From: an archaeon
Lineage (GTDB): Archaea > Asgardarchaeota > Hermodarchaeia > Hermodarchaeales > Hermodarchaeaceae
Assembly (NCBI GenBank): GCA_016550405.1
Contig: JABXGX010000039.1
Location: 1-12,685, forward strand
Length of the DNA: 12,685 nt
Direction: 5' to 3'
The stretch's first letter is position 1; each line of letters starts with the position of its first letter. This document shows positions 3,391 to 9,439 of the stretch, in pieces. The notes under the pieces were generated by a model, which saw only the letters and a program-made list of their open reading frames with translations, made no database searches and was not told where the DNA came from. A program made the translations under genes and the position numbers.

Positions 3391-5064
3391 GTGTGTGGAA
3401 ATCACGTGACACTGGATTTCAATCTCAAGCAATTGCTAGCAAATGGTGAAACGAGAAACACCGAATTCAAACGTTCCCTCACAGATCGCGATAAAACAAA
3501 AGATCGTAAGGCTAAACTAATCGCCCAATTGAAACTGATTACTAGTGAGGGGCTTGGGCAATTTGTAGTTGGTGTTGAAGACCTTCAAGGGAAAAAATGG
3601 GAAGTCTATGGTCTAACTGACGAGGAGATGGAAACCAGTAAGATTATTCTCAAAACTCTTTGCAAAGAAGCGGGAATTGAAATTCTAGAAGAAACCCATT
3701 ACAACACGGATCAAGGAATTGTAACCAGTTTCACTTTGGCTCGCGTAATAACACCCATGGTCCCAGAAACCGTTGGGATTAACATGGTTGGCAGAGTAAA
3801 TAGTGGAAAGACAACATTAGCTGGAGTTCTCATTCAATGTAAACTGGATGATGGGAGCGGACAAGCAAGAGCTGTACTCCTAACATACCCACAAGAGCTT
3901 AAGCGCGGACAGACTGCGGATTTACATGTTACATTTGCAGCCATCGATAAGGAAGGCGAATTCATTCCAATGGAAGCGCCTTTACAAAAATCAAAGCGCG
4001 CAAGAATCTTAGATAAGGCTCATCGAATTATTACTATCTTTGATGCCCCTGGTCATAAAGAATATGCAAAGACAATGATTCGCAGTGTTCTTGGAGCTTC
4101 TGCCCAATATAGTATGGTGCTAGTTCCTTGTTTAGACGAACACAAACTTGCCATTACTGAAGAACAACGAAGTGGAATACTTCGTTTAGATGACATAACG
4201 CGAGAACATTTGCTATTAGTGTCAAATCAAGAATTACCATTTTTCGTCGTTATCAACAAAACTGATGACTGTGATGAAGCTATCCGCTCTCGTGTTCGAA
4301 ACCTTGTCTTCGAGACGATTAAAGAAATTGGTCATGTTCCCCTACGGGTCACTTCCAATGACGATATACGGATAATTTGCCGCGAAATCGCCCATCGGGT
4401 TATTGTCCCAGTTTTCGAAGTCAGTTGTGTAACCGGAGAAGGACTTGATTTGCTACGAAAAAGTCTAGCATATATTCCTTCCCGCATACCAATTGAACGC
4501 ATCGAAAAACCTGCATTTGCGTACATCGACAAGGTATACCGTGGAATCCGAGGGACAAATGTTGTTATAACGGGAACAGTCCAAGAGGGTATCTTCAAAC
4601 CAGGTCAACCCATACTTTGTGGCCCAGATAACGACGGACGCTTTATGAAAGGCCGAATAGGTTCAATTGAAGTATTCAAAAAACGAGTTGAACGTGTGAA
4701 AGCGGGTGATGTCTTCGGATTCGATATCAAGCGGCTTCCACCTGAAAAGGTCCGGCGCGGACAGATTATCAGTGACAAAGATGCAGATACAAAAGCAGTC
4801 CAGGCTTTTGATGCCACAATTATCGTTACACGACACCCCACAAGGATACGCCCAGGATACGAACCGGTCTTTCACAGCGCTACCATTCAACAACCCGTTA
4901 TCTATGAAAAAATCTTTGACAAAGACTACCTAGTCGTCGGCGACGTAGCCCGGGTTCGTATGGTGTTCAAAAAGGGTCCAGAGATGCTAAGAATTGGTGA
5001 TCGTATAGTAACCCGTGAAGCAAATACTCGATGCATTGGAACAGTAACAGAACTCATCCGATAA
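3391..5064 (+). CDS. GTPBP1-like translational GTPase
   Basis: This 557-residue GTPase belongs to the EF-Tu-related GTPBP1/GTPBP2 group. In eukaryotes these act in ribosome rescue, mRNA surveillance and delivery of aminoacyl-tRNA; the archaeal role is unknown. Visible parts are an N-terminal domain of about 120 residues with NTEFKRSL (23-30), the P-loop GRVNSGKT (134-141), the family-typical segment KLDDGSGQAR (151-160) followed by a switch I region around Thr175, switch II DAPGH (218-222), NKTD (289-292), SCVTGEG (345-351), and two beta-barrel domains from about 373 to the end. Start choice is uncertain. GTG at 3391 is the longest start and has GGTGGAG 17 bases upstream; a GTG at 3406 is also possible. 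It follows the HAD gene by 63 bases and ends 14 bases from a convergent gene. Confidence 0.85.
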   Translation: MCGNHVTLDFNLKQLLANGETRNTEFKRSLTDRDKTKDRKAKLIAQLKLITSEGLGQFVVGVEDLQGKKWEVYGLTDEEMETSKIILKTLCKEAGIEILEETHYNTDQGIVTSFTLARVITPMVPETVGINMVGRVNSGKTTLAGVLIQCKLDDGSGQARAVLLTYPQELKRGQTADLHVTFAAIDKEGEFIPMEAPLQKSKRARILDKAHRIITIFDAPGHKEYAKTMIRSVLGASAQYSMVLVPCLDEHKLAITEEQRSGILRLDDITREHLLLVSNQELPFFVVINKTDDCDEAIRSRVRNLVFETIKEIGHVPLRVTSNDDIRIICREIAHRVIVPVFEVSCVTGEGLDLLRKSLAYIPSRIPIERIEKPAFAYIDKVYRGIRGTNVVITGTVQEGIFKPGQPILCGPDNDGRFMKGRIGSIEVFKKRVERVKAGDVFGFDIKRLPPEKVRRGQIISDKDADTKAVQAFDATIIVTRHPTRIRPGYEPVFHSATIQQPVIYEKIFDKDYLVVGDVARVRMVFKKGPEMLRIGDRIVTREANTRCIGTVTELIR

Positions 5065-6642: not shown

Positions 6643-7023
6643 TTAGGTTTCTAACGCACGAGCTTTAGCTGTAGCCGTCCAAGTTGGTTGGGCATGCATT
6701 TCTGCTTTCTTTAAATATCCTTGACTTACCAATTCATCTAATATTACGCGAACTTCATCTTCTTTGAGGGGCCTCTTCCCAATGGGAACTCGGGTACTGT
6801 TGACACCCTGCAAAATGCTAATGAACGATTGGTGCCCTCTTTGACAAATGAATAAGATTGCTTGTTGATCAGCAGACAATAATGATTCTTCTCCTTCTGC
6901 TTCAGCCACCTCCGCAGCTTCAGCCTGCTCAATTATTGTCTTGGGTATTGACACTTCTTGGTGTTTTACTGCAACCGGTTTCAGTTGTATCTTTCGCTTA
7001 ACCTTATTCTCATTTTCAATCAT
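6643..7023 (-). CDS. Hypothetical protein with C-terminal winged-helix-like domain
   Basis: I do not recognise a named family. The 126-residue protein has a basic N-terminus (VKRKIQLKPVAVK, 8-20), an acidic alanine/glutamate stretch (about 31-48, EQAEAAEVAEAEGEE) that is probably a helix or flexible linker, and a C-terminal domain from about 49. That domain reads like a winged helix: SADQQAILFICQRG, then LKEDEVRVILDELVSQGYLKKAE (split at 86-108), then a short strand and TATAKARAL. The start at 7023 is chosen over an upstream frame extension because GGGTGG lies 5 bases before it. The gene follows eL33 on the same strand with a 97-base gap and no clear promoter of its own, so read-through from eL33 is possible. 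A role in transcription or translation is a guess. Confidence 0.65.
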   Translation of the reverse strand: MIENENKVKRKIQLKPVAVKHQEVSIPKTIIEQAEAAEVAEAEGEESLLSADQQAILFICQRGHQSFISILQGVNSTRVPIGKRPLKEDEVRVILDELVSQGYLKKAEMHAQPTWTATAKARALET

Positions 7024-7120
7024 TCTAACCACCCTAACATTGAGACAAGGTTCATGCACCTAGATGTTGAGGGAAAGAGTGAGTCAAAAAGGTTTCTTTC
7101 AATAGAGATGAGAAGCGAGA

Positions 7121-7675
7121 TTAATAAACTAGGATCTCTTTAGCGATGGCTTCTGGGGCAAGGCCCCGTCTGAATCGTACACGCAAAACACCATTACGAC
7201 CATGGACGGACACAACTCGACCATGATTTGAAGTTTGATCATTGAAATGAATGATAACAGAGCGTCCAATATAATAAGCTGCTTGAGAAATCGAAGAGAC
7301 CCCCTCTAGTTGGATTAAGCCATATTGTGGTCGTTGTTGAATTGACCCCCGTTGGAAATTCAGCAGCACGCCCTTGACAGGTTTTTCAAGAGGCAGTCTG
7401 CGAGGTTTTTGGGGTTTGGTTTCGACTGTGGGTGCAACCTTTCGTTTTTTCTTTGTTTTTTTGGTGGGTGTTGTTTTCTTTGCCTTTGTCGTCGCCTTCT
7501 TCGGGGTCTTAGCCTTTGTCGTCGCCTTCTTCGGGGTCTTAGCCTTTGTCGTCGCCTTCTTCGGGGTCTTAGCCTTTGTCGTCGCCTTTTTTGGCGCTTT
7601 GGCTTTGTTTGAGCTAGTTGACTTAGATTTACTGCTTTTTGGTTTAGATTTGGATTTAGTAGATTTCTCAGGCAT
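7121..7675 (-). CDS. rpl35ae: Ribosomal protein eL33 (L35Ae) with a long histone-H1-like lysine-rich N-terminal tail
   Basis: Residues about 98-184 match the eL33/L35Ae family of the large ribosomal subunit: KGVLLNFQRG (101-110), QYGLIQLEGV (117-126), YYIGRSVIIHF (134-144), GRVVSVHGRNGVLRVRFRRGL in two parts (152-161 and 162-172), and the ending PEAIAKEILVY. This core of about 87 residues is the normal full length of archaeal eL33. The preceding 97 residues are extra: a Ser/Lys start (1-22), four units of the type KAKTPKKATT (24-66), a Lys/Thr stretch and KKKRKV (75-80). The T/APKK units resemble DNA-binding repeats of linker histone H1. The ATG at 7675 has AGGTGA 6 bases upstream. The tail may bind rRNA, DNA or both; this is not known. 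Confidence 0.9.
   Translation of the reverse strand: MPEKSTKSKSKPKSSKSKSTSSNKAKAPKKATTKAKTPKKATTKAKTPKKATTKAKTPKKATTKAKKTTPTKKTKKKRKVAPTVETKPQKPRRLPLEKPVKGVLLNFQRGSIQQRPQYGLIQLEGVSSISQAAYYIGRSVIIHFNDQTSNHGRVVSVHGRNGVLRVRFRRGLAPEAIAKEILVY
7482..7601 (-). repeat. 30-base tandem repeat inside the eL33 tail
   Basis: There are three nucleotide-identical 30-base copies (7482-7511, 7512-7541, 7542-7571) and a fourth diverged copy (7572-7601). Each encodes ten residues of the KAKTPKKATT type. Identity at synonymous positions points to recent expansion or homogenisation. There are no spacers, so it is not CRISPR. Confidence 0.95.
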
Positions 7676-7720
7676 TAACGGTCACCTAGCCTTAGGGTGG
7701 ACAAGGACACTAAGGAGTAG

Positions 7721-7841: not shown

Positions 7842-8231
7842 ATGGAATCGGCTTCTGATATATCCGCTATGTCTAAGTTGGAGAACTATCTCGATGAGGC
7901 TGTTAGTCGTGAACCCGCGATTCATAGTGCAGCAGTCATGACCGCTGATGGATTGCCTCTTATTGTTCTAATGGGTAAAGGTGAAGTTGAAAAATTAGAA
8001 TTAGCTGCAGCAATTGCGTCATTAGGTGCTTTGTCAGAACAGACTGCAAACCGATTAAAAATTGGGAAGTACAAGGATTTAATGCTCAGGTGCGGGCGAG
8101 GCCACCTTTTTGTGCGACGAATTAGTGAGGCAAATGTTCTGGCGATATTGGCCGATCGTAATGCTCCACTTGGAGCTCTTACTTTATTGATAGATTCGAT
8201 GTCTAAACGTCTAAAAGCATTGTTAAAATAG
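7842..8231 (+). CDS. Roadblock/LC7 domain protein
   Basis: This 129-residue single-domain protein is of the Roadblock/LC7 superfamily, small dimeric proteins that regulate Ras-like GTPases (MglB in bacteria, Ragulator and dynein light chains in eukaryotes). Such proteins are abundant in Asgard archaea. The fold shows a first helix (SKLENYLDEAVSREP), strands HSAAVMTADGLPLIV (28-42), the long central helix EKLELAAAIASLGALSEQTANRL in two parts (50-60 and 61-72), strands KYKDLMLRCGRGHLFVRRI and ANVLAILADRNAP, and the C-terminal helix LGALTLLIDSMSKRLKALL. The ATG at 7842 has GAGGG 9 bases upstream; an internal ATG at 7869 is less likely. It is divergent from eL33. No GTPase partner of the Ras type is in the window. 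Confidence 0.85.
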   Translation: MESASDISAMSKLENYLDEAVSREPAIHSAAVMTADGLPLIVLMGKGEVEKLELAAAIASLGALSEQTANRLKIGKYKDLMLRCGRGHLFVRRISEANVLAILADRNAPLGALTLLIDSMSKRLKALLK

Positions 8232-8242
8232 AATTTTAGATA

Positions 8243-9136
8243 TTATTCTTCGGACTGCTTATGCTTAAGCAGTCTCAGATAATCTTCGATACGATTATGA
8301 GTACGGGCTTCTCGTTGGGAGAGATTTGGGTCAACTTCAAGCCAATGTGAAGCAGCGAGATTTTCCAAAATTCGATGGGCACCAGACCCATATTGAAGTG
8401 CTCGTTTGGGAGCGTTAACAACCTGAGATGGTAACTTCAAGGAGTTGGCAAGCAGTCGGAGCACTCGTTTTCGAACAACCCCTTCACTGGTTTGAACGAT
8501 TTTGCATGAAAGGGGAAGCGCCGATGAAAAATCCCTGATGGTCTGATCAAGGTAAGGCACAACTAATTTCAAGTTAAAATGCTCAGCAATTGTCGTCATT
8601 AGTGGAAGTGTTTCTTTATGGAGCACCTGGAAATCAGCCACCATTTGGGTTACGACGGCTTGCTCGTCTGCTTCGATCAATTGCTTTTCATGTTTTGCAT
8701 ATCCCCCAAAAAGCTCGTCAGCGCCTTGACCACTAAAAAGCGTCCTAATTCTGAAGCGTTCGGCACAACGAGTTGCAAAGAAATGTGGAATTGCTAACTC
8801 TGTATGTAAGACATCGACTCGTCCAAGAATAGAAAGAATTGAGGGGAGAGCTTCTTGAACATCCTCGGCAGTGAATAGTTGAATTGCAAGAGGAAGGTTC
8901 AAAGACTCTGCAGCCATTCGAGCTTGCACAATATCCTTTGCAGACTCAATCCCAACGACAAAGAGTTGAATGGGCTTCTGGTGTGTTTCTAATAACATCG
9001 CAGCGATCACGCTACTATCAAGACCACCAGAGAACAGGACTCCAAAAGGTTGTGAAGAGTCATGGTATTGTAATAACACATTGCTTAGAAGAAAGTGAAG
9101 GCGACTACTAGACAGAATGCAAGGATCCTTTTTCAT
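8243..9136 (-). CDS. Stand-alone asparagine-synthetase-type amidotransferase domain
   Basis: The 297-residue protein corresponds to the C-terminal ATP-pyrophosphatase domain of asparagine synthetase B. The PP-loop SGGLDSS (36-42) binds ATP. SGQGADELFGGY (135-146) and VPYLD (193-197) are the other family signatures, and a RKRVLRLLA helix and APKRALQYGSG (242-252) follow. The N-terminal glutaminase domain with its catalytic Cys2 is absent: only about 30 residues precede the PP-loop. It may use free ammonia or a separate glutaminase, or it may amidate something other than aspartate. The ATG at 9136 is preferred to a GTG 12 bases upstream because GGTG precedes it with normal spacing. Its 3' end lies 11 bases from the convergent Roadblock gene. 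Confidence 0.85.
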   Translation of the reverse strand: MKKDPCILSSSRLHFLLSNVLLQYHDSSQPFGVLFSGGLDSSVIAAMLLETHQKPIQLFVVGIESAKDIVQARMAAESLNLPLAIQLFTAEDVQEALPSILSILGRVDVLHTELAIPHFFATRCAERFRIRTLFSGQGADELFGGYAKHEKQLIEADEQAVVTQMVADFQVLHKETLPLMTTIAEHFNLKLVVPYLDQTIRDFSSALPLSCKIVQTSEGVVRKRVLRLLANSLKLPSQVVNAPKRALQYGSGAHRILENLAASHWLEVDPNLSQREARTHNRIEDYLRLLKHKQSEE

Positions 9137-9439
9137 TGTTAGACACACCAGTGATTAAAGTACAAGACATCGGCAGGTTTATTTGCATCGATAAGCTGAA
9201 AAAACTCTGGTCGCTTATCCGCGATGACAGGAAGGCATTTGTGTGACCGCACTTGCGGGATGAACTATCATAGTTACCTAGAGCGAGTGAGCGGCTAAGT
9301 TCATTTGGTCTATGCGCGCGCAAATGGGTGGATGGCTGGAAGAGCAATCTCATTGCTAAGGTTGATCAAGTCCAGCTGATTCAAGATTGTGATGATTTTT
9401 TGTGTTCTTTCATCACCCTCTCTGTAGGAGTACTCTCAA

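Follow-up and report, generated by a model that had tools for sequence, protein, structure and literature searches.

A lysine-rich N-terminal tail on ribosomal protein eL33 of Hermodarchaeia, and its possible role on ribosomal RNA

The gene for ribosomal protein eL33 (L35Ae) in a 12,685-nucleotide stretch of DNA from Hermodarchaeia, hereafter the window, encodes a complete eL33 core with 97 lysine-rich residues in front of it, and in its relatives the tail keeps a steady charge and length while its repeat units turn over. On the sequence evidence, we are inclined to regard the protein as an ordinary eL33 with a translated, disordered and polycationic tail, which would clamp or shield the rRNA of its own subunit and would be under selection for charge and length. 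Long cationic tails of ribosomal proteins are usually discussed for eukaryotes; here at least two Asgard classes are seen to have them, the tailed proteins differing in part from class to class and the repeats turning over by slippage. They offer features open to experiment in an archaeal ribosome that stands near the eukaryotic branch.

The gene lies on the reverse strand at 7121..7675 with 184 codons and a stop, and as the original prediction held, its core is complete behind a long N-terminal part. In fact, PF01247 (Ribosomal_L35Ae) matches residues 100-183 (7127..7378, reverse strand) with 59.9 bits against a gathering cut-off of 27 (E 2.9e-16), the only other Pfam match at E up to 0.1 being a weak one to RimM. 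The NCBIfam archaeal equivalog NF003326 gives 54.2 bits, below its cut-off of 85, and as this is a narrower archaeal model it is not taken as definitional for eL33 membership; the database protein P0001, with a core identical to that of the window, is named '50S ribosomal protein L35ae' by NCBI. The AlphaFold2 model from an alignment of 23 sequences has a beta-rich core, with predicted strands and a block of pLDDT 70-90, and an unstructured tail. By Foldseek, the best 50 of 1165 PDB matches (E up to 10) all belong to ribosomes or pre-ribosomes, 7qca_LFF at the head of the list being named L35a, and the Pyrococcus furiosus chain 9qf4_Bc aligns with the predicted core at a TM-score of 0.86 over the target. 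Moreover, each of the four Hermodarchaeia relatives searched (the window's own genome was not among them) has a single PF01247 match.

The surroundings agree with the Asgard type of source that had been proposed, most likely Hermodarchaeia. Downstream of eL33 lies a gene on the same strand (6643..7059) that serves as a marker of the syntenic block, and on the other side a divergent Roadblock/LC7 protein (7842..8231, forward strand; PF03259, E 6.4e-9); both also adjoin eL33 in L001 and L002, a Hermodarchaeota record and a record with Hermod in its isolate name, so that the gene order around eL33 is common to the three. In L003 ('Candidatus Hermodarchaeum yapensis') eL33 is tailed and its neighbours differ. 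Further out, the window encodes a 301-residue protein with an asparagine-synthase domain (8243-9148), a similar gene standing beside the eL33 block in L001 and L002; its profile match starts near the N-terminus, and it therefore appears to be without the glutaminase part. An EF-1alpha-like GTPase at 3391-5064 has about 125 additional N-terminal residues, with a weak match to Schlafen AlbA_2 below the cut-off.

The tail itself comprises codons 1-97 (7385..7675, reverse strand) and is predicted to be disordered, with a mean pLDDT of 40-45 over residues 11-70. It is composed of 34 K, 19 T, 11 P, 11 A, 9 S, 3 R and 3 E among its 97 residues, that is, 37 K/R against three acidic residues. Tandem Repeats Finder detects a 30-bp unit in 3.7 copies with 98% matches at 7477-7588, and by reading of the sequence, four 10-codon units AK(A/T)PKKATTK occupy 7484..7603 on the reverse strand (codons 25 to 64), AKAPKKATTK being followed by three copies of AKTPKKATTK that are identical in all 30 bases. 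The described richness in Lys, Ala, Thr, Ser and Pro with K(T/A)PKKATT repeats is thus confirmed, while the described SPKK/TPKK units are present only in part, as three TPKK and one APKK occur and SPKK is absent from the tail. Between the repeats and the core runs a conserved basic junction, KK.KKKRK...RRLPLEKP (7379..7462, reverse strand), found in the alignment A2 of 23 sequences. A Shine-Dalgarno-like GGTGA (7682..7686, reverse strand) precedes the ATG by six bases and may serve in initiation. Searched against solved structures, the tail has a sole match, at E 2, to a chlorophyll-binding protein, which we take as chance, and in the viral contigs searched no match was found.

Database homologues were gathered in two sets, 38 proteins found by core words (101-322 aa, the window itself included) and a further search giving 19, six of them already among the 38, which together give 51 homologues (P0001-P0051 less P0002, plus the window). 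A tail is visible in 39 of them, the window included, so that its sharing by relatives stands. The other 12 have their start at the core or within it and are for this reason left out of the tail statistics; they are the partial P0041 and 11 models of 80-81 aa starting at an internal Met, which are likely to be mis-starts of the gene caller. In the 39 tailed sequences, among which P0003 and P0005 are probably cut short, the tail has 28-133 residues (median 83), a lysine fraction of 0.29-0.43 (median 0.34) and a net charge of +10 to +40. A SEK-like start occurs in 35 of the 40 sequences longer than 130 aa (the window counted twice, as P0002, and P0052 included), the exceptions being the partial P0003 together with P0030, P0033, P0035 and P0038, and the basic junction recurs before the core in the 23 aligned sequences.

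The repeat units differ from one sequence to another: AKTPKKATTK in the window, AKTKKATTKKAA in P0007 and P0008, KTKTTKKSSAKA in P0010, PKKKTTTKK in P0031, and (KPKA)n in the genomes G069-G071. P0001 has the tail of the window less one 10-residue unit. Across 11 relatives the identity to the window is 0.66-1.0 without gaps in the core, and 0.4-1.0 with 10-39 gapped columns in the tail.

At the genome level, eL33 is matched in seven of the eight Hermodarchaeia genomes, and all seven have lysine-rich sequence before the core, none of them showing a tail-less eL33. The tails are whole in G001-G003; in G004 the tail is located at the end of another contig, and in G069-G071 the (KPKA)n stretch is cut short at a contig end. 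A profile search over the whole Asgard phylum gave PF01247 matches in 147 of 227 genomes, and all 36 matches with an open frame of at least 115 aa were read; a shorter frame has room for no more than about 30 residues ahead of the core. A lysine-rich extension was seen in six Hermodarchaeia genomes, G061, G044 and G173, and in none of the other 27 read frames, in which either a start codon is near the core or the frame upstream is not rich in lysine; the long open frames of G192, G159, G185 and G213 were read and set aside as not lysine-rich, and neither is L083 (G164). Two close eL33 relatives among the database records, the tailed P0036 and the short P0050, are labelled 'Candidatus Thorarchaeota archaeon' and 'Candidatus Hodarchaeota archaeon', respectively; either these records are misnamed or the tail has spread beyond Hermodarchaeia.

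Extended forms are also found in a second and larger Asgard class, that of G061, which is probably Heimdallarchaeia. The Pfam eL33 model matches in only two of its 58 genomes, one of them over the cut-off, while a profile of diverged eL33 built from the lead of G061 and G044 finds the gene in 33 genomes at 34 places, and this partly explains the apparent absence of eL33 from the class. We read 31 of the 34 places (among L060, L061 and L070-L113), leaving out G015, G026 and, at a contig end, G025, and every one of the 31 has an extension, either a K/T/S tail or a lysine-rich linker. Tails of K/T/S/A/P type stand at nine places, from G059-G067; the other 22 have a linker, ahead of which a helix-hairpin-helix-like start is seen in all but three (G014, G023 and G040, where the contig starts inside the linker). 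Of the linker type, four proteins were tested (G044, G016, G029 and G021) and Pfam HHH_5 was found in each, the others being judged by eye; HHH_5 is present too in G173, outside this class.

The Pfam eL33 model stays below its cut-off in all extended proteins that were scanned. Their kinship is supported by profile comparison, in which the two extended kinds match canonical eL33 with E 1.1e-14 and 9.3e-13 against 0.27-0.4 for reversed controls; the K/T/S kind matches the Hermodarchaeia cores more weakly (59% probability, E 9.2e-5). One database protein was found for the diverged form, P0052, a 'hypothetical protein' of an Asgard group archaeon in which Pfam finds nothing. In G065, both kinds occur in one genome, the tail type and the helix-hairpin-helix type (L080, L100), and this may be either a paralogue or contamination. 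Four matches, of G046, G049, G051 and G052, lie in long sensor-like proteins and were dropped as false; a later profile search did not repeat them.

Besides eL33, other ribosomal proteins are tailed as well. In two Hermodarchaeia genomes, the S10/spc cluster has lysine-rich runs of at least 30 residues on uS3 (L138 16242-17405), uL5 (L138 13120-13782) and uL15 (L138 8052-8693), and uS11 of G001 has 87 residues ahead of its domain (L140 2-379); as uS3, uL5 and uL15 are tailed besides eL33, the lysine-rich tail is a habit of these ribosomes and not of eL33 alone. A scan of 16 ribosomal proteins in 12 further Asgard genomes, where those without a Pfam test are named by gene order, gave lysine-rich runs on uS3, eL32 and uL18 in G061, on eL32 and uL18 in G185 and G214, and on uS3 in G029, and none in G006, G012, G044, G075, G082, G121, G122 and G124 (G006, G044 and G082 being partly covered).

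The rRNA that the tail might bind was sought at H98/ES39, where values came from four of the eight loci tried (none from G061, G012, G214 and G069). Compared with the archaeal consensus, the 23S of G003 has a 61-nt insert at this site (L123 2154-2214), and the inserts are 60 nt in the extended G044, and 64 nt and 48 nt in the untailed G075 and G006, so that no correlation of the tail with ES39 size is visible in the few genomes read. A partnership between the tail and ES39 is thus possible but not supported; enlarged ES9 and ES39 are known in Asgard archaea, as stated in passages of PMC9834061. The 23S genes of G061 and G012 measure about 4.1 kb where the model has 2987 (L156, L158), which points to large inserts. 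The 23S of G003 is split between two contigs (L124, L125), and on C60 its match spans 1065 bases where the model has 360 positions, owing to either an intron or an assembly break.

With these observations a scenario can be proposed for the tail. It would be translated and kept on the 50S subunit, would exit on the solvent face near the junction of domains II and VI, which is the ES7/ES39 side in yeast, and would clamp or shield the rRNA of its own subunit, either while the subunit is being assembled or in the mature ribosome. The tail may arise and be renewed by tandem slippage of codon repeats, and selection would act on net charge and length but not on sequence. This reading is favoured by the single eL33 in each related genome searched, by the steady charge with shifting units, and by the recurring junction and SEK-like start; it gains further from the contacts of eL33 in yeast and Leishmania, the tail of mosquito RpS6 and the tailed uS3, uL5 and uL15. 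It is weakened as the size of H98/ES39 does not track the tail, as NF003326 scores below its cut-off and 12 of 51 homologues are without a visible tail, and as the passages on Leishmania leave unstated which end of eL33 is extended. Binding of the tail to rRNA, which had been suggested among its roles, remains plausible by our analysis.

The alternative that survives best, although we think it rather improbable, is that of nearly neutral accretion, where slippage adds cheap K/T/A/P repeats to exposed termini of ribosomal proteins with no specific task, and these are tolerated since polycations are harmless on the ribosome. The variation of the units between lineages, the fact that the ribosomal proteins with tails vary from class to class, and the identical units, a mark of recent duplication, are what such a process would leave behind, but it does not easily account for lysine-rich sequence before the core in all seven Hermodarchaeia genomes with a match, for a lysine fraction held within such narrow bounds over 39 tails, or for the recurrence of the basic junction and SEK-like start. 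A broader and speculative scenario, to which we give little credence, is that several proteins of the ribosomes of Hermodarchaeia and of G061's class bear polylysine tails peculiar to each lineage, forming a coat that would hold ribosomes and nascent rRNA in charge-driven assemblies; these would be an archaeal functional forerunner of the nucleolar lysine-rich domains, rebuilt in each class on different proteins. It is likewise unlikely that the many tails of a ribosome act in trans, binding RNA so as to gather polysomes into clusters or to keep pre-ribosomes close to the rRNA being made. The presence of several tailed proteins per ribosome would suit such condensation or tethering, and the lysine-rich KKE/D domains of yeast snoRNPs are described to act so in passages of PMC11528048; but E and D stand beside K in the name of these domains, whereas the window tail has only three acids.

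A kinship with linker histones, as had been proposed from the S/TPKK units, is not upheld by the comparison with H1. Among the 38 tails of at least 50 residues, 10 contain the motif [ST]P[KR][KR], and shuffles of the 38 give 12.5 (SD 2.8), so that the count is not above expectation and kinship by this motif is rejected. For the window alone, shuffling of its tail gives the three copies a P of about 0.01, but they come from the duplication of one unit, as their identical DNA indicates. Neither the globular winged-helix domain of H1 nor a histone-fold family is matched by Pfam in the window protein at E up to 0.1. The histone-fold frames of G001 and G003 have 71-80 aa and thus no room for a long tail, and in G002 no such frame was found. 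With the tail as query, six genomes gave no H1-like source protein, the only matches being the eL33 tails of G003 and G004; this search is weak, since those of G001 and G002 escaped it.

It follows that a role of eL33 on DNA, moonlighting on the nucleoid or tying ribosomes to DNA by S/TPKK, is quite unlikely, and the chromatin-like function of the original prediction is not supported; since other ribosomal proteins of the class carry tails of a like kind, nothing requires eL33 in particular to act on DNA. In its favour, the extended eL33 of G061's class often bears a helix-hairpin-helix domain, a fold common in DNA-binding proteins. The Drosophila eRpL22, whose N-terminal extension has homology to H1 according to passages of PMC11883427, also speaks for it. 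An artefact of annotation or assembly, with the true start near residue 98 or the repeat mis-assembled, is hardly credible, because there is no ATG, GTG or TTG between codons 1 and 103, the GTG at codon 103 falls inside the first predicted core strand, a Shine-Dalgarno-like element precedes the ATG and tails are present in other records, even though the copy number is uncertain (P0001 having one unit fewer), the contigs of G069-G071 end inside the tail and 11 database models start within the core.

Compared with known systems, the window protein has the same core sequence and fold as eL33/L35Ae (PF01247) and differs by its tail; the solved archaeal chains have 87-95 aa in P. furiosus and 101 aa in Thermococcus kodakarensis (6skg_Bf) against 184 in the window. 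The PF01247 match starts at residue 8 in the P. furiosus chain 1sqr_A, but at residue 58 of 157 in 4v6w_Cf, which we take to be from Drosophila, 48 of 140 in Plasmodium (3j79_9), 42 of 144 in Leishmania (3jcs_g) and 47 of 149 in Trypanosoma brucei (4v8m_Bl). Accordingly, the view that known eL33 proteins have short N-termini holds for Asgard genomes outside the two classes and G173, but not for several eukaryotes, where the core begins at residue 42-58; in these kinetoplastids, Plasmodium and Drosophila the N-terminus of the same protein is longer, and differs from the Asgard one by having roughly 34-50 extra residues. According to passages of PMC5071889, the trypanosome-specific extension of eL33 in Leishmania binds an rRNA end, which adjoins the uL13 pin that fills the space of H98. 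In yeast, passages of PMC9700599 place eL33 in the domain II/VI cluster in contact with ES7 and ES39, its residues 4 and 6-8 contacting eL6.

Other lysine-rich proteins are alike in part. The KKE/D domains of yeast snoRNPs are lysine-rich and disordered as the window tail is, and act near nascent rRNA in vivo (passages of PMC11528048), but they belong to snoRNP proteins and have acidic residues by name. The tails of archaeal histones, mentioned as lysine-rich for Heimdallarchaeota in passages of PMC11764897, resemble that of the window, whose protein has no match to the histone fold. As for Asgard archaea, the titles and abstract openings listed from the mostly open-access literature searched yielded nothing on eL33/L35Ae tails or lysine-rich tails of ribosomal proteins, and the words L35ae, eL33, Hermod and extension are absent from the main text of PMC10833476, which treats Asgard ribosomal protein clusters.

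The closest parallels are the H1-like extensions of insects, on mosquito RpS6 and RpL23a and on Drosophila RpL22, where a long lysine-rich terminus is borne by a ribosomal protein as in the window, with an in-frame, low-complexity stretch. Hernandez and Fallon, in 2007, reportedly dealt with those of RpL23a and RpS6 in mosquito. In passages of PMC548281, the H1-like tail of mosquito RpS6 is judged to be convergent with H1 and is retained on ribosomal subunits, and such insect tails are also covered in passages of PMC11764897. Tails of this sort on insect proteins are therefore already known, and the eL33 tail of Asgard archaea is an apparent novelty within the literature as searched; it differs from the insect ones in belonging to an archaeon, in being on eL33 instead, in its tandem K/T/P/A repeats and in that a single class has four or more ribosomal proteins with tails.
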